Translations under genes and position numbers: made by a program
From: a virus
DNA length: 31,764 nucleotides
Virus record (IMG/VR): IMGVR_UViG_3300001685_000006
Coordinates: 1-31,764 of that record
Strand: one strand, 5' to 3'
Part shown: one piece after another, positions 1,552 through 17,620 of the stretch
Layout: each line of letters starts with the position of its first letter
How positions within the stretch are numbered: position 1 is the stretch's first letter
Notes under the pieces: model-generated
The model's database searches: none
The model's input: only the letters and a program-made list of their open reading frames with translations
Told to the model about the DNA's origin: nothing

Positions 1552-2142
1552 CTATAAGTAAATGATATTGTCTGCTTGTTCGATTAATTCATTTGTATGA
1601 CTACACATAATGATTTGAAGACTTAATAATTTTGAAATTTCTTTGATCATTTTTGAAACTAAAGGGATATATCTTTTGGAAACATTTTTAAAAGGTTCAT
1701 CCATGATAAGGATGGGGGCAGGATCAGGTTCTTCTAAAGCATGGATGACCAATCGGAGAGAAAAAGCAGTAACGTCTGTTAAGCCTCCTGATATAGTGTC
1801 TTTACGTGGTTCAAGAAGAACTCCATTCCTATCAATAAACCATTGTATTTCAAATTGGTCTCTTTTATCATAATTAAATTGAGCTACAAAACTATACTCG
1901 TCACCGTAGACTGTTTGGATAGCAAAAGTAACGGTGTTTTCAATAAAATCTTTGACTTCTTTTCTGGTAGTATCCCCAATTTTGATGACATAAGATTTTG
2001 CCATCTCCAGGGATTCCAAAATAGATTTTTCTTTGGCAATTATGAGTCTGTTGGAGCGCAAACTGGATTGAGCGAATACCAATTCGGTTTCCATAATGTT
2101 AATCATTTCACACAGTTTTGTGAATGTTTCATTATGTGGCAT
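1552..2142 (-). CDS. Rad50/SbcC-like ATPase, C-terminal half (signature motif and Walker B)
   Basis: This is the C-terminal half of a Rad50/SbcC (T4 gp46-like) ABC ATPase, which with Mre11 processes DNA ends in recombination and repair. The first ~60 residues look coiled-coil. The ABC signature SGGLTDV is at 118-124, Walker B ILIMDEP at 144-150 with Asp148 and Glu149, and the switch histidine in CSHTNEL at His182. There is no Walker A; that motif is on a separate protein encoded at 4152-5222. The start ATG at 2142 is preceded by AAGGA and overlaps the end of the upstream 86-aa coiled-coil gene by 11 bases. A complete ATP site would need both half-proteins, because Rad50 sites form between Walker A/B of one head and the signature of another. 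Confidence 0.85.
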   Translation of the reverse strand: MPHNETFTKLCEMINIMETELVFAQSSLRSNRLIIAKEKSILESLEMAKSYVIKIGDTTRKEVKDFIENTVTFAIQTVYGDEYSFVAQFNYDKRDQFEIQWFIDRNGVLLEPRKDTISGGLTDVTAFSLRLVIHALEEPDPAPILIMDEPFKNVSKRYIPLVSKMIKEISKLLSLQIIMCSHTNELIEQADNIIYL

Positions 2143-2392
2143 CGATCAATCCTTCAGAAACGATAGAATTGTATAATGATTCTGTTTGATTTGCAACTCT
2201 TTTTTTTCTGTCTTCTTTTTCATCAATTAATTGATCATAAAGCTCATATCCTTCCTCCAAATTATCAATATCAAATTCTTCTTTTAGTTGATTAAGAAGT
2301 AGTTCTTCTTGAGCTATTGCTCTTTGATTTTTGTTTTTCATGTCATTCAAAAAATTTTTCATTTTAGTGATTTTTGCTTCAACTAAATCCAT
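2132..2392 (-). CDS. Small coiled-coil protein, possible Rad50 coiled-coil fragment
   Basis: An 86-aa charged helical protein with heptad-like spacing almost throughout, including QEELLLNQLKEEF and a stretch ending YDQLIDEKEDRKKRV. There is no catalytic motif. It has a strong GGAGG site before the ATG at 2392, and its stop overlaps the start of the Rad50 C-terminal half. Position and composition suggest it could supply part of the returning coiled-coil arm of a Rad50 broken into several polypeptides, but a separate partner protein is equally possible. The gene is well supported; the role is inference. Confidence 0.7.
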   Translation of the reverse strand: MDLVEAKITKMKNFLNDMKNKNQRAIAQEELLLNQLKEEFDIDNLEEGYELYDQLIDEKEDRKKRVANQTESLYNSIVSEGLIDAT

Positions 2393-2442
2393 TTTTTTTC
2401 CTCCATAAAAATTTTTAAATTTTTATATTGGTATAATTCAAG

Positions 2443-3237
2443 TTAACTTTTTTTAAGTATACTCAGGATAGGATCTATCTGATAATCATAGGCATGAAGG
2501 CCCATAGATGTAAAAGTTAATGGCCCTGGTTCAACATCATCTAATTGATTAGCAACATACTCATTTAATAAGGTAAGTCCTCCCATGTTTTCAGGAAACC
2601 CTGCATAAAGATCCCAGGATCTAAAGATACAACCCATTATTAGATAACCACCTTTAATCTTGAAATCGATACCTCTGAGACAGGGGGATGTCTTGCGCTC
2701 ACCTTCATTGTCATAGGGTATGTCATAGTTAAAGCCAGAGTCCACATTTCCAACGTTAATGTAGCAATGGTTGTTCCCATACCCTTTTTCTTTAAAGTGC
2801 CTGACAACCCATTCTAAAGGGGTTTCTTTATTGTCTATGAATTCTTCATCTGATAGTTTTTCTTCTTCTGTTTGTAATGCTTCCGGTTTTGCTAAAAAAT
2901 GTCTGTAATGATCTGTACCATTGATCCATGAGCTATATTTGTAATGCTCATTGCCTTCCAATTCAGGGTTCATTAAGTAATTGGGAAAATACTCAAGTTC
3001 CAGCTTTTCATCGGTTGTTACAGGAGGGATACCTTCAGGCATGATTGGAGCAAGCGGTCTGGTGTGAGGATAATTGATAAAACCAGAGCAAAAATCAAAT
3101 TCCAATCTTGATGCTCCAGCAAATGATCCTGTATCAATCTTGTATTTTCTGCCAAATTCCCAAACATAAGATAATAGTTGAAAGTAACAATCGTTTAAAT
3201 CATTAGCCATAATTTGTACGGGTTTAAAATTGTTCAT
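2443..3237 (-). CDS. thyA: Thymidylate synthase (ThyA-superfamily, archaeal-like)
   Basis: Converts dUMP to dTMP with methylene-tetrahydrofolate, or possibly a related pyrimidine (hydroxy)methylation. Counting from an in-frame upstream ATG at 3255, the catalytic cysteine is Cys192 in SPCLRGIDFKI, followed by FRSWDLYAGFPENMGG (211-226), which carries the Arg-Ser-x-Asp phosphate-binding loop and the conserved Asn223, and by GLHAYDY (252-258). These are the standard TS nucleotide-binding elements, in the form I associate with archaeal TS. I place the start at 3237 (MNNFKPV), giving 264 aa, because AAAGGAG lies 6 bases before it while the ATG at 3255 has no site. The gene overlaps the Mre11 gene by 14 bases and sits between the two Rad50 pieces. 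Hydroxymethylase activity cannot be excluded from sequence alone. Confidence 0.85.
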   Translation of the reverse strand: MNNFKPVQIMANDLNDCYFQLLSYVWEFGRKYKIDTGSFAGASRLEFDFCSGFINYPHTRPLAPIMPEGIPPVTTDEKLELEYFPNYLMNPELEGNEHYKYSSWINGTDHYRHFLAKPEALQTEEEKLSDEEFIDNKETPLEWVVRHFKEKGYGNNHCYINVGNVDSGFNYDIPYDNEGERKTSPCLRGIDFKIKGGYLIMGCIFRSWDLYAGFPENMGGLTLLNEYVANQLDDVEPGPLTFTSMGLHAYDYQIDPILSILKKS

Positions 3238-4174
3238 TGATAACTCCTTTTTCAATTAGATCTGCTGTTGTTGTTCTGATTATTGTTTCTACTCTATTAG
3301 GAAGTTCATGTTGATCTAAATTATGCATTAATGTTTTTAAAAATGATTTTTTATGTTTGAATTTTTTGTTTTTCAATGAATCAACAAATTTTAAAACATT
3401 GTCTGTCATTGTTTCAATGTTTTGTTCAATGTGAGTTCTGGACAAAACCTGCTCTGGATCAAGGTCGGATATAATTAGTTCTTTATGTATTAATGTGTCA
3501 AGATTTAATAGTGTAACTGAAGGTATGAACCATTCTTCAACTGTACGTCTGATTATAGGCCCAGGATTGATTACTCTTGTTTCTTGATGTTTGTAAATAT
3601 AGCGTCTGTGCCAATGACCACAAATAATCAAATAAAATCCTTTAAGTTGGGGATCAGTATCAATATTTGAGCAAAATTCGGTGTCATCTAAGATCCATGA
3701 ACCTTGTCTTTTTAATTTTTTACCGGATACAATAGCTTTATGAGATAAAAGTAAACCTGGACGATCTCCATACCATTGTATTTCTTTTGATTCCCAATCC
3801 AGCCATGCCCACCACATTTTATAATCTCTCCAGAATTCAGAGATATGTTTTACTTTGTTATTGTTTTTCCAAAGGACTCCTAATGATGTACGATCCCACA
3901 TATCCATAGAATGATATTGAAGGTCATGATTACCCCAAACAAAATACAATGGGTTATGTAATTTGGTTAATATTTCTCCAAGTCGAGTGAGTAATGAATT
4001 TGCAATTATAGCAACGTTGAATATATCTCCAGTGTGAACAATAGGTACATCATTTTCATTGGCAAGTTCTATAATGTATTCCCATTTTTCAAATTGAATT
4101 TCAACAAGGTCATCTAAACGTGCAACAGGATTGCGTCCTGTAAGATGACTATCACCGACAACAAGTATCTCCAT
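3224..4174 (-). CDS. Mre11/SbcD-like nuclease (T4 gp47-like)
   Basis: Metallophosphoesterase subunit of the Mre11-Rad50 (SbcCD, T4 gp46/47) complex that trims DNA ends. All phosphoesterase motifs are present: GDSHL with Asp8 and His10, HTGDIFN with Asp50, GNHDL at 81-85, SHK at His144, and CGHWHR with His187 and His189. The length of 316 aa is close to T4 gp47. The C-terminal ~80 residues are charged and helical and would be the Rad50-binding part. The ATG at 4174 is preceded by AAAGG and lies inside the end of the Rad50 N-terminal gene (23-bp overlap), which implies coupled synthesis of the two partners. Confidence 0.9.
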   Translation of the reverse strand: MEILVVGDSHLTGRNPVARLDDLVEIQFEKWEYIIELANENDVPIVHTGDIFNVAIIANSLLTRLGEILTKLHNPLYFVWGNHDLQYHSMDMWDRTSLGVLWKNNNKVKHISEFWRDYKMWWAWLDWESKEIQWYGDRPGLLLSHKAIVSGKKLKRQGSWILDDTEFCSNIDTDPQLKGFYLIICGHWHRRYIYKHQETRVINPGPIIRRTVEEWFIPSVTLLNLDTLIHKELIISDLDPEQVLSRTHIEQNIETMTDNVLKFVDSLKNKKFKHKKSFLKTLMHNLDQHELPNRVETIIRTTTADLIEKGVINEQF

Positions 4175-5222
4175 CTTTTACCTTTCTATTACATAGTGGA
4201 CAATAACCTAATTGAATAAATGCTTCATTAATTTCTGCTTCTTGAATTAAAATACTTTTTTCTGTTGTTTTTTGTACTGTTTGTGCTTCTTTAATCTGAT
4301 CTAAGCATTTTTTAAGTAATTTGGATTTCAATTTTAGTGAACTTAATTCCAAATTTTTGGAGTGAATAGCATGTAATGAATTTAATAAAGATATTATTAT
4401 ATTTGGATCAATGATTTTTATTTTTTTTATCTTTATTAAAATAGATTCAAGTTTTTCAATACTTTCATCGAAATCATTGGTTTCTTCAAGATCACGGACA
4501 ATAGTTTTTATATTGTCATCAAACCTACTTATTCTTTTGTACTTCATTTTTATTTCCTCTATCAACTCCAATTGTACCAATATATTTTCTAATCTACTTG
4601 TTTTTATTTCTAATTCGGATACTTCTTTTTCTAAATAAATAATACCTTCTGCTTTAAGTTTGTATCTAACTATATTTTTTAATCTTTCAATGGTTTTTAA
4701 ATGCACTTCATTATTTTTTTTATGTCTTTTAATTTCACTTTTTGAATGAGATAATTTTTGTTTAATTGAATCAATGATAATTTCTTGATCACCCATACCA
4801 GTAGCACTATTTAATAATTTCCCTGCTGATCCTCCAGTAGAAAATAAAAGGTAATGAACATCATTTTGTTTCTGCCAATTGATTTCTTTGAAATTAAATA
4901 ATTCTTTTACTGGATCTGGAACAGATGTACCAAAGGCTTTTAAAGGTTTACCATTATTAAGATAGTATTTGTTTTTGGTGCGCTTAACGGTGTTTCCTGC
5001 ATCATCTTTTAATTGAATTGATAATTTTTTATCAGTCAACCATGATTGATATAGTTTTTCTCCTCCTCTTGGGGAATTTTCAATTAAAAGATATAAAGCA
5101 CGAATCAAAGTACTTTTACCTTCCTCTGATTCACCTACAATTATATTTAAACCTTTGGTGAATTTAACTACTTTTTTAATGTGCAATCCAAATGCTTCAA
5201 CTGTGAGTTCAGATAAATTCAT
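4152..5222 (-). CDS. Rad50/SbcC-like ATPase, N-terminal half (Walker A, coiled coil, zinc hook)
   Basis: The N-terminal half of the Rad50-like ATPase. The N-terminus NLSELTVEAFG is followed by Walker A GESEEGKST (30-38), as in RecF/Rad50/SMC proteins. A long charged coiled-coil region follows, from about residue 150 to 330. The protein ends in a zinc-hook-like sequence with CPLC at 341-344 and stops 12 residues later. In an intact Rad50 the chain would turn at the hook and return to the signature and Walker B half; here that half is encoded 2 kb downstream at 1552-2142. The break exactly at the hook suggests a functional split rather than decay. Overlap with the Mre11 gene indicates translational coupling. 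Confidence 0.88.
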   Translation of the reverse strand: MNLSELTVEAFGLHIKKVVKFTKGLNIIVGESEEGKSTLIRALYLLIENSPRGGEKLYQSWLTDKKLSIQLKDDAGNTVKRTKNKYYLNNGKPLKAFGTSVPDPVKELFNFKEINWQKQNDVHYLLFSTGGSAGKLLNSATGMGDQEIIIDSIKQKLSHSKSEIKRHKKNNEVHLKTIERLKNIVRYKLKAEGIIYLEKEVSELEIKTSRLENILVQLELIEEIKMKYKRISRFDDNIKTIVRDLEETNDFDESIEKLESILIKIKKIKIIDPNIIISLLNSLHAIHSKNLELSSLKLKSKLLKKCLDQIKEAQTVQKTTEKSILIQEAEINEAFIQLGYCPLCNRKVKDGDTCCR

Positions 5223-14248: not shown

Positions 14249-15463
14249 TTAATTGGTTTTAATTCGTTTCATATCCAACCAGTTTTTACCTACTTCCCAA
14301 TCAGTTTTCATTCTAACGGTAGTAGTCCAGGGTAGGTGGGGTTTATCGGTCATTTTTTCATCTACCATATCTATGAAGTCTCCACCTTCATAGGTTCTCA
14401 GATTGGCTTTACCACTATCATGTATCTGATTGATTAAATGTGATTCCCATCCTCCTTTCTCCAATTCATCTTCGATATTAATTAACGAGTCAAGCAATAA
14501 TAAAAATGACGTTGATTGAATTGGATAATTAATTATTTCGTTTCTGGTTAAGGGAAATCTTCTGCGAAATCCGAATGGATTTTCAACATACCCTGTTTTG
14601 TAGTATTTGTCAACTATGGCATCCTGATATGCTTTATAGATGTGATACCTTTCATAAAATTGATTTTGACAATCCTTAATATGGTTCTGAGAAAAGTTAA
14701 AGAAGTAATGATCAAATGCTTCATGTTTTGTTTTGCGTTGATTGTAAATGTTATAAACAAAATCTTTATAAAAATCACTCTTTCGCATTTCTTCTGCAAT
14801 TGATGAAAATCCTGCTCCAAAGAAATTAGCAAAAGTAAAATTGTTCTTTGCCAGGAATCGTTCATTGTCACCAAACTTTTCTTTTACCTGTTCATAGGAG
14901 TAACCTTTCAATCCAAATAGTTTAATTGCCCAATGGGAATGCATATCCAGATCGTTATTAAGATCTTCAATCATTTGGGGATCATTGCCAAGCATTCCTG
15001 CAACTTTGACTTCTGCACCATCGTAATCAAATTCACATATAAGCCATCCTTTTCCTAAACAAACAAATACTTTTCTAATTGTTTTCCAGGGTAGGTTCGG
15101 AAGTATATCACCATGTTTCGGTTGATTCTGTAAATTGGGATCTGATGAACTTGATCGATAGGTTTCAGCTACATTCAACCATAGTTCATGATGTACTCTA
15201 CCATCATGTTCAGATACATTGCGTTTGAGATCGGCAATATAAGTATTCAATGCTTTGTTAAGTTTTCTATATTGTAATAATAATTTGCAAAATTTTATGT
15301 TTTGATTTTCAGCGTAATGAATGATTGTTGCTTCATCTGTTTTGTAATTACCTGTTTTTTTATTAGGTTCTGTAAGAGGTTCTAATCCAAGGAACTCATA
15401 AAGGAATTCCTGCATCTGAGGATTAGATCTGAGATTGAAATTGAAATCAGATTCATTAATCAT
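14249..15463 (-). CDS. Family A DNA polymerase, polymerase subunit (split gene)
   Basis: The polymerase half of a family A DNA polymerase, 404 aa, starting within the thumb (KKTGNYKTDE at 35-44). Motifs are LQNQPK (111-116), motif A CEFDYDGAEVKVAG with catalytic Asp146 and Glu151, motif B R202-x3-K206 leading to FFG at 214-216, and motif C NQIHDS at 345-350 with Asp349. Motif B is one residue longer between the Lys and the Gly than in E. coli Pol I, and motif C has HDS instead of HDE. The exonuclease half is a separate protein encoded at 16052-17620. The TAATG overlap with the gene between them shows coupling. This is probably the replicative enzyme, acting as a two-chain complex. Confidence 0.88.
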   Translation of the reverse strand: MINESDFNFNLRSNPQMQEFLYEFLGLEPLTEPNKKTGNYKTDEATIIHYAENQNIKFCKLLLQYRKLNKALNTYIADLKRNVSEHDGRVHHELWLNVAETYRSSSSDPNLQNQPKHGDILPNLPWKTIRKVFVCLGKGWLICEFDYDGAEVKVAGMLGNDPQMIEDLNNDLDMHSHWAIKLFGLKGYSYEQVKEKFGDNERFLAKNNFTFANFFGAGFSSIAEEMRKSDFYKDFVYNIYNQRKTKHEAFDHYFFNFSQNHIKDCQNQFYERYHIYKAYQDAIVDKYYKTGYVENPFGFRRRFPLTRNEIINYPIQSTSFLLLLDSLINIEDELEKGGWESHLINQIHDSGKANLRTYEGGDFIDMVDEKMTDKPHLPWTTTVRMKTDWEVGKNWLDMKRIKTN

Positions 15464-16128
15464 TAAATTTCCCTTATATTTATTGGTTTGATTTTGCTTA
15501 AATCAATTGTATCAGGTTTATCATTTGTTACTTTGCCAGATTTAGTTCCTTTGACTTTTATTTTTTTAATTGAATCTTTTGATATTTCAAATACACCAGC
15601 TATTTCAAAGTATTCATCGATACCTTGAATTATATGACTGATCATAGACATTTGCTTATCTGAATCTGTCATTTGTGATAATTGAATTTCCAGACTATAA
15701 TCAATCATTGTGATGATTGAAGTTATACTTCCAATAAATATTCGCATCGGTTCAGGATCTTTAAAATTATCAACTGCACATTCAAATTCTTTCCAGATGT
15801 GATTTATATAGTTTTCAACAGATCCCATTCGGGTACTGTCAAGCATGTTAGCAATGATTTGCATACACATAGTAAGGTAATTATTCATTTGATTTGGAGA
15901 TTTGAATACTTCTACATCCAGATTATACAACTCAATGTAATCAGATAATTCTTTTCGATACATTGAAAATGGTTTTATAAGTGATTTTCTTTTTCTTACA
16001 TCTACAATAAAGGCTTTCTTTCCATTGTAAATGAATGAAAATTCTTTTAGATTAAAATGAAAGTTTTCTTCTAATCGGTTTACCACTTGTTGTATTACTG
16101 CTGATTGTTCTTGAGTGATCTTTATCAT
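15463..16128 (-). CDS. Hypothetical protein between the two polymerase halves
   Basis: About 221 aa, unrecognised and mostly helical. It has a basic FIVDVRKRKSLIKPF segment near 40-60, a central helical block with several Met/Ile repeats, and a Lys-rich end. It shows no palm, thumb or homing-endonuclease motif, so it is not obviously a polymerase domain or a mobile intron gene. I choose the ATG at 16128, because AAAGGAG lies 9 bases before it; the ATG at 16137 is directly against that site. It overlaps the exonuclease subunit by 77 bases and the polymerase start by one base. It could be a bridging factor for the split polymerase, which is inference. Confidence 0.75.
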   Translation of the reverse strand: MIKITQEQSAVIQQVVNRLEENFHFNLKEFSFIYNGKKAFIVDVRKRKSLIKPFSMYRKELSDYIELYNLDVEVFKSPNQMNNYLTMCMQIIANMLDSTRMGSVENYINHIWKEFECAVDNFKDPEPMRIFIGSITSIITMIDYSLEIQLSQMTDSDKQMSMISHIIQGIDEYFEIAGVFEISKDSIKKIKVKGTKSGKVTNDKPDTIDLSKIKPINIREI

Positions 16129-17620
16129 AAGTTCCATCTCCTTTCATTTTTATAGAAAGTGATTTTAATTTCTTATCAGTTGATTTACTTAAATTGGTTT
16201 TATCTTCTAAATAAGTATTATAAGCTTTGAATTGAGGGATCTGAGATATGCGAGTAAGTACTGATTCCATTTTATTAATTAATGTAGTTTCCAATGAATC
16301 CAATTCTTCTTCACCTATTTTAATTCCTGCCTTTGTCATGTTTGCAAAGAGCTTATGACCCCTATGTAAAAACTCATAATTATATTTAGCATTAGGGTAA
16401 ACAATTGGAAGTATCTTTTCAATTAACAACCATTGATTGTAGGTAGTAATAACATCTAATCCAGCATAGAGTATCATATCGTCATATGGTGCTTCTCTGA
16501 TTCGATTCTGTTTATCATCCTTATCCTTTTTCATTAGAAATGTTTTAACTGTATCTGAATAAGGTGGAATGCCAAACCTTGTTAGGTTTTGAAAATCTAA
16601 TGAAGTGGTTCCTCTGCGTTCATCAATCACATGAGATGCAATCATTGGATCTTGAGTATTGACTATTTCAGCGCCAAATACCCATCGACTGACATTGCGT
16701 TCAAATTTGACATTTTGGATTATCTTTTCAATTGATGGATTGGGTAAAAATTTTTCCATGAAATGCCAAAGCATAAAATCATTGTTCTCATTTTCCAACC
16801 ATAATGATTCATGCAATACCCAGGCATATTTTGCAGTTGAGAATTGAATGTGAGTGATTTCAAAGTTATCATCGAATGGTTTGACATTGGTTGCTTCATA
16901 ATCGAATGCAATTCTTTTTGTATTCCAGATCTTATCAAGGCAATCTCTTAATTCTTTTTCAGTTTTAACCTCTTTAATTGTGATCCCTTCAAGGATCTTT
17001 CGTTCCTGAAGTAATTGATCGACTTTTTTATAGGTATTGTATTTAGACCAGAATTTTAATGCACGTTTAAGATCACGCTTTAAAGCGTATTGTTGATCAT
17101 AATTATATAGGTCATTAGGGTTCATCAGAGTGTACACAAGGCAATTAAATTCATAATTAGGGATCAACCTACCTCTGAGCTTTGTCGGTGGGATTTTGTT
17201 CTTTAAATTGAATAGGGATTTGAATGCCATTTCTCCACAACAAATGATCATTTTAGGTTTTAATTTATTAAGTTCATCGACTAAGAATGATCGACAGCAT
17301 TTGAATTGAACTTCAGTGGATTTCTTTTTTGAATAACATTTAAGAGCGTAGACAAATGCAGCAACGTTTTTTAGATTGAATCCCTCTTTGAATGCATTTG
17401 ATCTGATTGCTTGTGCTTTTTTATTTGAAAAATGAATTGATCGAGTGTCATCATCCTGTGATGGTTGTTGACCTAATATAACCAATCCACTGTAATTGCT
17501 TCCTTTGTAGAATGGAAAGAATGGAGTATCAATTGCAGGATTATCAAAACGATTGCATTTATCACAATCATATTTGACATTTGATTTTTTTGTCTGTGGT
17601 AGAGGAAAATAGAAACTCAT
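16052..17620 (-). CDS. Uracil-DNA-glycosylase-like domain fused to polymerase 3'-5' exonuclease (split family A polymerase)
   Basis: A 522-aa protein. Residues 1-195 resemble a family 4 UDG: CDKC at 19-22 plus Cys95 and Cys108/109 would hold a 4Fe-4S cluster, GQQPSQDD at 50-57 matches motif 1, and the later motif 2 site reads MNPND instead of HPS. Residues 210-400 are a DEDD exonuclease: FDYEAT with Asp240 and Glu242, QNVKFE with Asn303 and Glu307 (Asp is usual here), and YAGLDVITTY with Tyr385 and Asp389. A helical thumb-like region follows, and the chain ends IRRKLSF. A similar UDG-like N-terminal domain is known in SPO1-type polymerases, as I recall. The altered UDG residues leave catalysis uncertain. 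Only a GGTGA site precedes the ATG at 17620. Confidence 0.82.
   Translation of the reverse strand: MSFYFPLPQTKKSNVKYDCDKCNRFDNPAIDTPFFPFYKGSNYSGLVILGQQPSQDDDTRSIHFSNKKAQAIRSNAFKEGFNLKNVAAFVYALKCYSKKKSTEVQFKCCRSFLVDELNKLKPKMIICCGEMAFKSLFNLKNKIPPTKLRGRLIPNYEFNCLVYTLMNPNDLYNYDQQYALKRDLKRALKFWSKYNTYKKVDQLLQERKILEGITIKEVKTEKELRDCLDKIWNTKRIAFDYEATNVKPFDDNFEITHIQFSTAKYAWVLHESLWLENENNDFMLWHFMEKFLPNPSIEKIIQNVKFERNVSRWVFGAEIVNTQDPMIASHVIDERRGTTSLDFQNLTRFGIPPYSDTVKTFLMKKDKDDKQNRIREAPYDDMILYAGLDVITTYNQWLLIEKILPIVYPNAKYNYEFLHRGHKLFANMTKAGIKIGEEELDSLETTLINKMESVLTRISQIPQFKAYNTYLEDKTNLSKSTDKKLKSLSIKMKGDGTYDKDHSRTISSNTTSGKPIRRKLSF

Follow-up and report, generated by a model that had tools for sequence, protein, structure and literature searches.

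The window, i.e., the whole stretch of DNA analyzed here, is a viral fragment of 31,764 bases from IMG/VR. Five adjacent genes on its minus strand are transcribed in the order Rad50 N-half (N), Mre11, thymidylate synthase (TS), K (a label used here) and Rad50 C-half (C). These genes and their main features are as follows:

4152-5222, minus strand: Rad50 N-half (N), 356 aa, ending in CPLCNRKVKDGDTCCR, with SbcC and AAA_23 profile matches
5112-5135, minus strand: Walker A motif GESEEGKS, N residues 30-37
4209-4793, minus strand: helical arm, N residues 144-338, with ~47-residue periodicity
4191-4202, minus strand: zinc-hook-type CPLC, N residues 341-344, 12 residues from the C terminus
3224-4174, minus strand: Mre11/SbcD-type nuclease partner, 316 aa (Metallophos_2, E 8e-12; phrog_100, SbcD-like)
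2443-3237, minus strand: thymidylate synthase (Thymidylat_synt, E 1e-5), with an alternative start at 3255
2132-2392, minus strand: K, a coiled-coil gene, 86 aa, predicted helical hairpin
1552-2142, minus strand: Rad50 C-half (C), 196 aa, matching SMC_N and the C end of Rad50 profiles
1783-1791, minus strand: ABC signature SGG, C residues 118-120
1696-1710, minus strand: Walker B motif LIMDE, C residues 145-149

A preliminary description, made from the sequence alone, had placed the Walker A motif, coil and CPLC hook in one gene and the signature and Walker B motif in another, and this was borne out by the open reading frames and the profile matches. It had also claimed that each gene has its own Shine-Dalgarno (SD) site and overlaps its neighbor. 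The first claim held for all five genes, which are preceded by the SD-like sites aaagg, aaagg, aaaaaggag, ggagg and gaagga. The second held only in part: N and Mre11 overlap by 23 nt, Mre11 and TS by 14 nt, and K and C by 11 nt, but TS and K are separated by a 50-nt gap. The good SD of TS precedes ATG 3237 and not TTG 3255, and ATG 3237 is probably the start of this gene. The TS is divergent and lies within the module in the lineage of the window; it was also found in the related locus L005 (11959-13043), where an additional 115-aa gene precedes it. In L011 and L013, neither TS nor the 115-aa gene separates Mre11 from K. Because it is missing from these two loci, TS is considered a lineage-specific insertion that is incidental to the module and lies outside the machine. 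A gene for a UvsX/RecA-like protein is located ~2-3 kb upstream of the module in the phage.

The N-half carries the motifs of a Rad50 N-lobe. Across 75 non-redundant N-halves, Walker A residues G30, G35 and K36 were present in all sequences, residue 37 was Ser or Thr in all, and Q119 of the Q-loop was invariant. The AF2 model of N, built with 70 relatives, comprises a Rad50 N-lobe and two long helices (residues 144-267 and 273-338). The mean pLDDT of this model was 86.6, and its pTM with the arm included was low (0.43). Its best matches in the PDB were Rad50 and SMC heads (9a9j_A, E 3e-6; 1f2t_A, E 2.5e-5; also 1f2u); 1f2t and 1f2u carry the N- and C-terminal Rad50 segments as separate chains. 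The distance between the N-lobe and the hook was 151-307 aa overall, with clusters at 156, 203 and 250 aa in phages and, for the bacterial set described below, at 306, 259 and 212 aa. Autocorrelation revealed self-similarity of the arm at a lag of 47 residues (z 24.9) and again at 94 (z 12.8). The N arm does not conform to a simple heptad coil, and its topology is unresolved. Across phages and bacteria the arm length shifts in whole steps of ~47 residues, despite sequences that are only ~20% identical. The arm ends in the putative hook. Two hook cysteines aligned in 75/75 N-halves, with a strict CxxC within the last 45 aa in 71 of them and altered Cys spacing in the other four; the first Cys lies a median of 12 residues from the C terminus. 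With a CxxC at its tip, the N arm thus satisfies the criterion for a zinc hook, with zinc binding itself being inferred.

The C-half consists of an N-terminal helix (~58 aa) followed by the SGG signature, the LIMDE Walker B motif and a CSH H-loop. It aligned to residues 696-864 of the 883-residue Rad50_Halo profile (E 2e-6) and matched the ATPase family phrog_15167 (E 8e-23). Among 71 C-halves, D148 and E149 of the Walker B motif were present in all, whereas His182 of the H-loop was found in 56 and was replaced by Asp in 11. The signature reads GGG or SGG, with G120 in 69/71 sequences, and is atypical in that it follows G/S-G-G-x-x-D as opposed to LSGGQ/E. Walker A, Q-loop, signature, Walker B and H-loop are all present in the system, but spread over two chains. 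N and C are therefore complementary, each alone being an incomplete ABC ATPase.

The metal ligands of the Mre11 partner (D8, H10, D50, H83, H145 and H189) are kept in 75-77 of 77 Mre11 sequences. The window Mre11 had no match to the SbcD model TIGR00619 at E 0.1, and the Mre11s of the module fall outside the SbcD clade; an SbcD would be recognized by a score over the TIGR00619 cut-off and a position in that clade. In the Mre11 tree, the module-associated proteins from viral contigs, bacteria, fused chains and cultured phage formed one group with respect to SbcD and YhaO (SH-aLRT 99), which shows that the Mre11 partners share ancestry. The base of this group was unresolved, so a phage or bacterial origin of the module was not decided.

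K is predicted by AF2 to be a hairpin of two helices (residues 3-40 and 45-79; pLDDT 94.8). A K-C read-through fusion from L006 was not used for structure prediction, as MAFFT threaded the C rows onto K. K homologues were recovered by profile in 126 loci and the C-half in 131. Profile searches assigned K to no family except the nameless phrog_18563, to which the member from phage vB_BboS-125 belongs. The possibility that K is a copy of the N-terminal helix of the C-half or of an N-arm repeat was rejected, since the hhalign probabilities (64% and 25%) were no better than coiled-coil resemblance.

The preliminary description had regarded the split as stable and had suggested a search for phages with the same or a fused arrangement. 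Profile searches of every ORF in the relatives yielded 98 distinct loci, nearly all on viral contigs, and the split was found again in relatives from 100% down to ~20% identity. The viral contigs included relatives with N identities of 100, 89, 67, 56 and 55% and C identities from 100 to 28%. The order N-Mre11-K-C was found in 79/98 loci and in a further two where N is present as two ORFs (81 in total); the remaining loci mostly miss one part, frequently where the contig ends. Median lengths were 355 aa for N, 307 for Mre11, 82 for K and 205 for C. No ORF in the 98 loci matched both the N and C profiles, and none met the definition of a single-polypeptide Rad50/SbcC, in which the N- and C-lobes are joined by an antiparallel intramolecular coiled coil. 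Large open frames among the relatives (e.g., 1159 aa) proved not to be real fusions: in L071, each of N, Mre11, K and C was confirmed to end in its own stop codon. Comparison of the window with L003, L005 and L006 gave dN/dS values of 0.07-0.48 for N, Mre11, K and C; these values below 0.5 indicate purifying selection on all four proteins. The claim of a stable split was thus upheld.

Two refutations had been named in advance. The first, an assembly error, is excluded because ~98 independent loci show the split. The second was a complete Rad50 at another place in the genome, and it found no support: contigs of 30 relatives (40-112 kb) contained no second full-length Rad50, and each had one strong Rad50-type Walker A match, corresponding to the N-half, apart from one of the 30 records without any. 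Because only a 31.7-kb fragment of the window's own genome is available, a complete Rad50 elsewhere in that genome cannot be fully excluded. A megablast search of one module stretch against phages gave no match.

The module also occurs in cultured phages. The four genes occur together and in order in Microcystis phage Mvi-JY20 (proteins XAI95539-XAI95542), where each is annotated as hypothetical; its K was identified by eye, as the profile did not recover it. In Bacillus phage vB_BboS-125, N, K and C are present along with a 573-nt gap that contains an AP2-domain gene, and Mre11 lies downstream. The vB_BboS-125 N, C and K proteins fall into phrog_16465 (exonuclease), phrog_15167 (ATPase) and phrog_18563 (unknown), families whose descriptions do not link them to a common machine. 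In Microbacterium phage Magritte, N (gp155), K (gp245) and C (gp2) are dispersed, the N-half lacks the CxxC, and no Mre11 was found in the genome pieces examined. The Magritte K comes after a gene that reads as a PD-(D/E)XK/Cas4-like nuclease (gp244). These Magritte observations concern L138 (1363-2480) and L139 (1839-2891).

The module is not confined to phages. The C-half profile matched in 21/291 genomes of one bacterial class and in 66/399 genomes of its phylum, which we take to be Bacillota, and nearly all of these matches were ORFs of ~210-260 aa. The typical bacterial order is cinA-recA-mre11-N-K-C-rny, and RNase Y and/or RecA adjoins the module in 14/20 loci examined; module genes were identified by profiles and their neighbors by reading the sequences. 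In the Bacillota-type loci L188-L207, the genes flanking the module read as cinA/recA on one side and RNase Y/ymdB/spoVS on the other, which places it in a core chromosomal neighborhood. The bacterial N proteins end ~20 aa beyond the CxxC. A canonical SbcD above the cut-off was found in only 1 of 42 module-bearing genomes, compared with 14 of 40 other genomes (Fisher p 1e-4), with the caveat that these genomes are not phylogenetically independent.

Three bacterial genomes (L180, L181 and L182) encode a single chain of 684-700 aa in which Mre11 is followed by the N-lobe and then the C-lobe. The joining of these three in one chain indicates that they are parts of one machine. The hook is absent and the arm almost absent from the fused chains, which results in a very small Mre11-Rad50. 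Mre11 and Rad50 in one chain is a condition met only in L180-L182 and not in the window, where the genes are separate. The fused chains probably derive from the split form, because they nest inside the bacterial split group of the Mre11 tree (SH-aLRT 96 and 100). A gene that reads as an AddB-like nuclease lies downstream of the fused chain in L180 and L182.

Taken together, N, Mre11, K and C likely constitute a divergent Mre11-Rad50 (SbcCD-type) complex for DNA-end processing with a naturally divided Rad50, in which assembly, zinc binding, the position of K and the ATPase, nuclease and tethering activities are inferred. In such a complex, N would supply the N-lobe with Walker A and Q-loop, the long helical arm and the terminal two-cysteine hook, and C would supply the C-lobe with signature, Walker B and H-loop, together with its short helix of ~58 aa. 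The two lobes would form one ATPase head without a covalent link, and ATP would be sandwiched by two heads on an Mre11 dimer. Zinc may join two N arms via their CxxC motifs, which is an inference. K most likely would pack at a fixed site, near the base of the arm or at the N/C junction, where it may keep the halves joined or substitute for a short stretch of paired coil. The role in the phage would probably be recombination-dependent replication and repair, as for T4 gp46/gp47, with the UvsX/RecA-like protein. Against this reading stands the lack of any physical evidence for N-C association, ATPase or nuclease activity; the earlier prediction of a head assembled from separate chains accordingly remains an inference and has not been shown. 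Further points against the reading are the atypical signature and the Asp at position 182 in 11/71 C-halves, the dispersed genes and missing CxxC of Magritte, the low pTM of the N model, an arm that departs from a simple heptad coil, and the non-independence of the genomes in the SbcD comparison.

The best-surviving alternative, although unlikely, is that K and the N-terminal helix of C together make up the complete return arm, i.e., that the Rad50 chain is simply interrupted at two points, the hook and the K/C boundary, and regains its canonical fold. In its favor, the lengths roughly match in the window (arm ~195 aa; K 86 aa plus C helix ~58 aa), and K precedes C at almost every locus. However, the arm varies over its 151-307 aa in ~47-residue steps, whereas K is always ~80 aa (each helix with an sd of ~5 aa) and the C helix is near-constant (sd 6 aa). 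Arm length was not correlated with that of K (rho -0.01), the C helix (0.14) or the two combined (Spearman rho 0.11, p 0.34). Since the K and C-helix lengths are independent of the arm, K and C do not form a full return arm. Moreover, K is predicted to be a hairpin and not a single long helix. The suggestion that the 86-aa protein is a third piece of Rad50 therefore held in part: K is a regular, conserved member of the module, but not simply the missing return arm.

It is very unlikely that N and C act independently, with N being an SMC/RecF-like ATPase half that binds DNA, C a separate ATPase, and no head common to both. They are encoded by separate genes, which are far apart in Magritte, but each has only half of an ABC ATPase site with complementary invariant motifs; moreover, three bacteria have them fused within one chain, and they lie in one operon in most loci. 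Finally, a decaying, mis-assembled or frameshifted Rad50 pseudogene, which would fit with Rad50 ordinarily being a single chain, can be dismissed, since the split recurs in ~98 loci as well as in dozens of bacterial genomes, other genes intervene between the halves, selection is purifying and the motifs are intact.

The divided Mre11-Rad50 resembles SbcCD/Mre11-Rad50 of E. coli, B. subtilis, archaea and eukaryotes in combining an Mre11-type nuclease with an ABC ATPase that has Walker A, Q-loop, signature and Walker B, a long arm and a CxxC hook. Three features set it apart: a Rad50 split into two chains at the hook, an additional 80-aa hairpin protein, and an Mre11 that groups separately from SbcD and YhaO. 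The module thus shares the motifs and, by inference, the way of working of SbcCD, but does not fit the definition of Rad50/SbcC as one chain. As in T4, whose gp46/gp47 are a phage-encoded Mre11-Rad50 pair, a UvsX/RecA-like recombinase is encoded in the genome. T4 gp46 is a single chain, unlike the split Rad50 of the module; its coil is shorter than in cellular forms (PMC3175470). Mimivirus R555 is an Mre11/Rad50 fusion of 1351 aa with a coil of cellular length (PMC3175470). The L180-L182 chains likewise fuse Mre11 to Rad50 parts and represent a natural change in chain number, but are only ~700 aa long, have neither arm nor hook, and branch within the split clade. The P. furiosus Rad50 catalytic domain 1F2T/1F2U is a laboratory construct with the N and C segments as two chains. 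In contrast to this artificial truncation, the split in the module is natural, and arm and hook are retained on N. No paper on a split Rad50/SbcC was found in the open-access literature searched, which does not cover subscription papers. The module probably represents a stable form of Mre11-Rad50 that is old and does not yet have a name.

A bolder reading, which in our view is slightly more likely to fail than to hold, is that this is an unrecognized class of Mre11-Rad50 in phages and bacterial chromosomes, where it replaces SbcCD beside recA. Its Rad50 would obligatorily consist of N, K and C, with an arm that grows in ~47-residue modules and lacks a return strand to pair with. Two such arms would be joined directly at a zinc hook near the chain termini. 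Rad50 is viewed as a single chain whose ends meet via an intramolecular coiled coil; a natural and widespread form with its head halves in separate genes would mean that this link is dispensable, and the module would offer a natural two-part system for studies of head assembly and hook function. It would also add an uncharacterized 80-aa subunit to the Rad50 complex, provide a DNA-repair annotation for hypothetical genes in phages and beside recA, and give a possible reason why some bacteria lack SbcCD.

As a separate observation, the family A DNA polymerase of the window is also divided (14249-17620, minus strand). One piece (16052-17620, minus strand) carries a uracil-DNA-glycosylase domain and a 3'-5' exonuclease, the region 15463-16137 (minus strand) encodes a 224-aa protein of unknown kind, and the other piece (14249-15463, minus strand) carries the polymerase domain.
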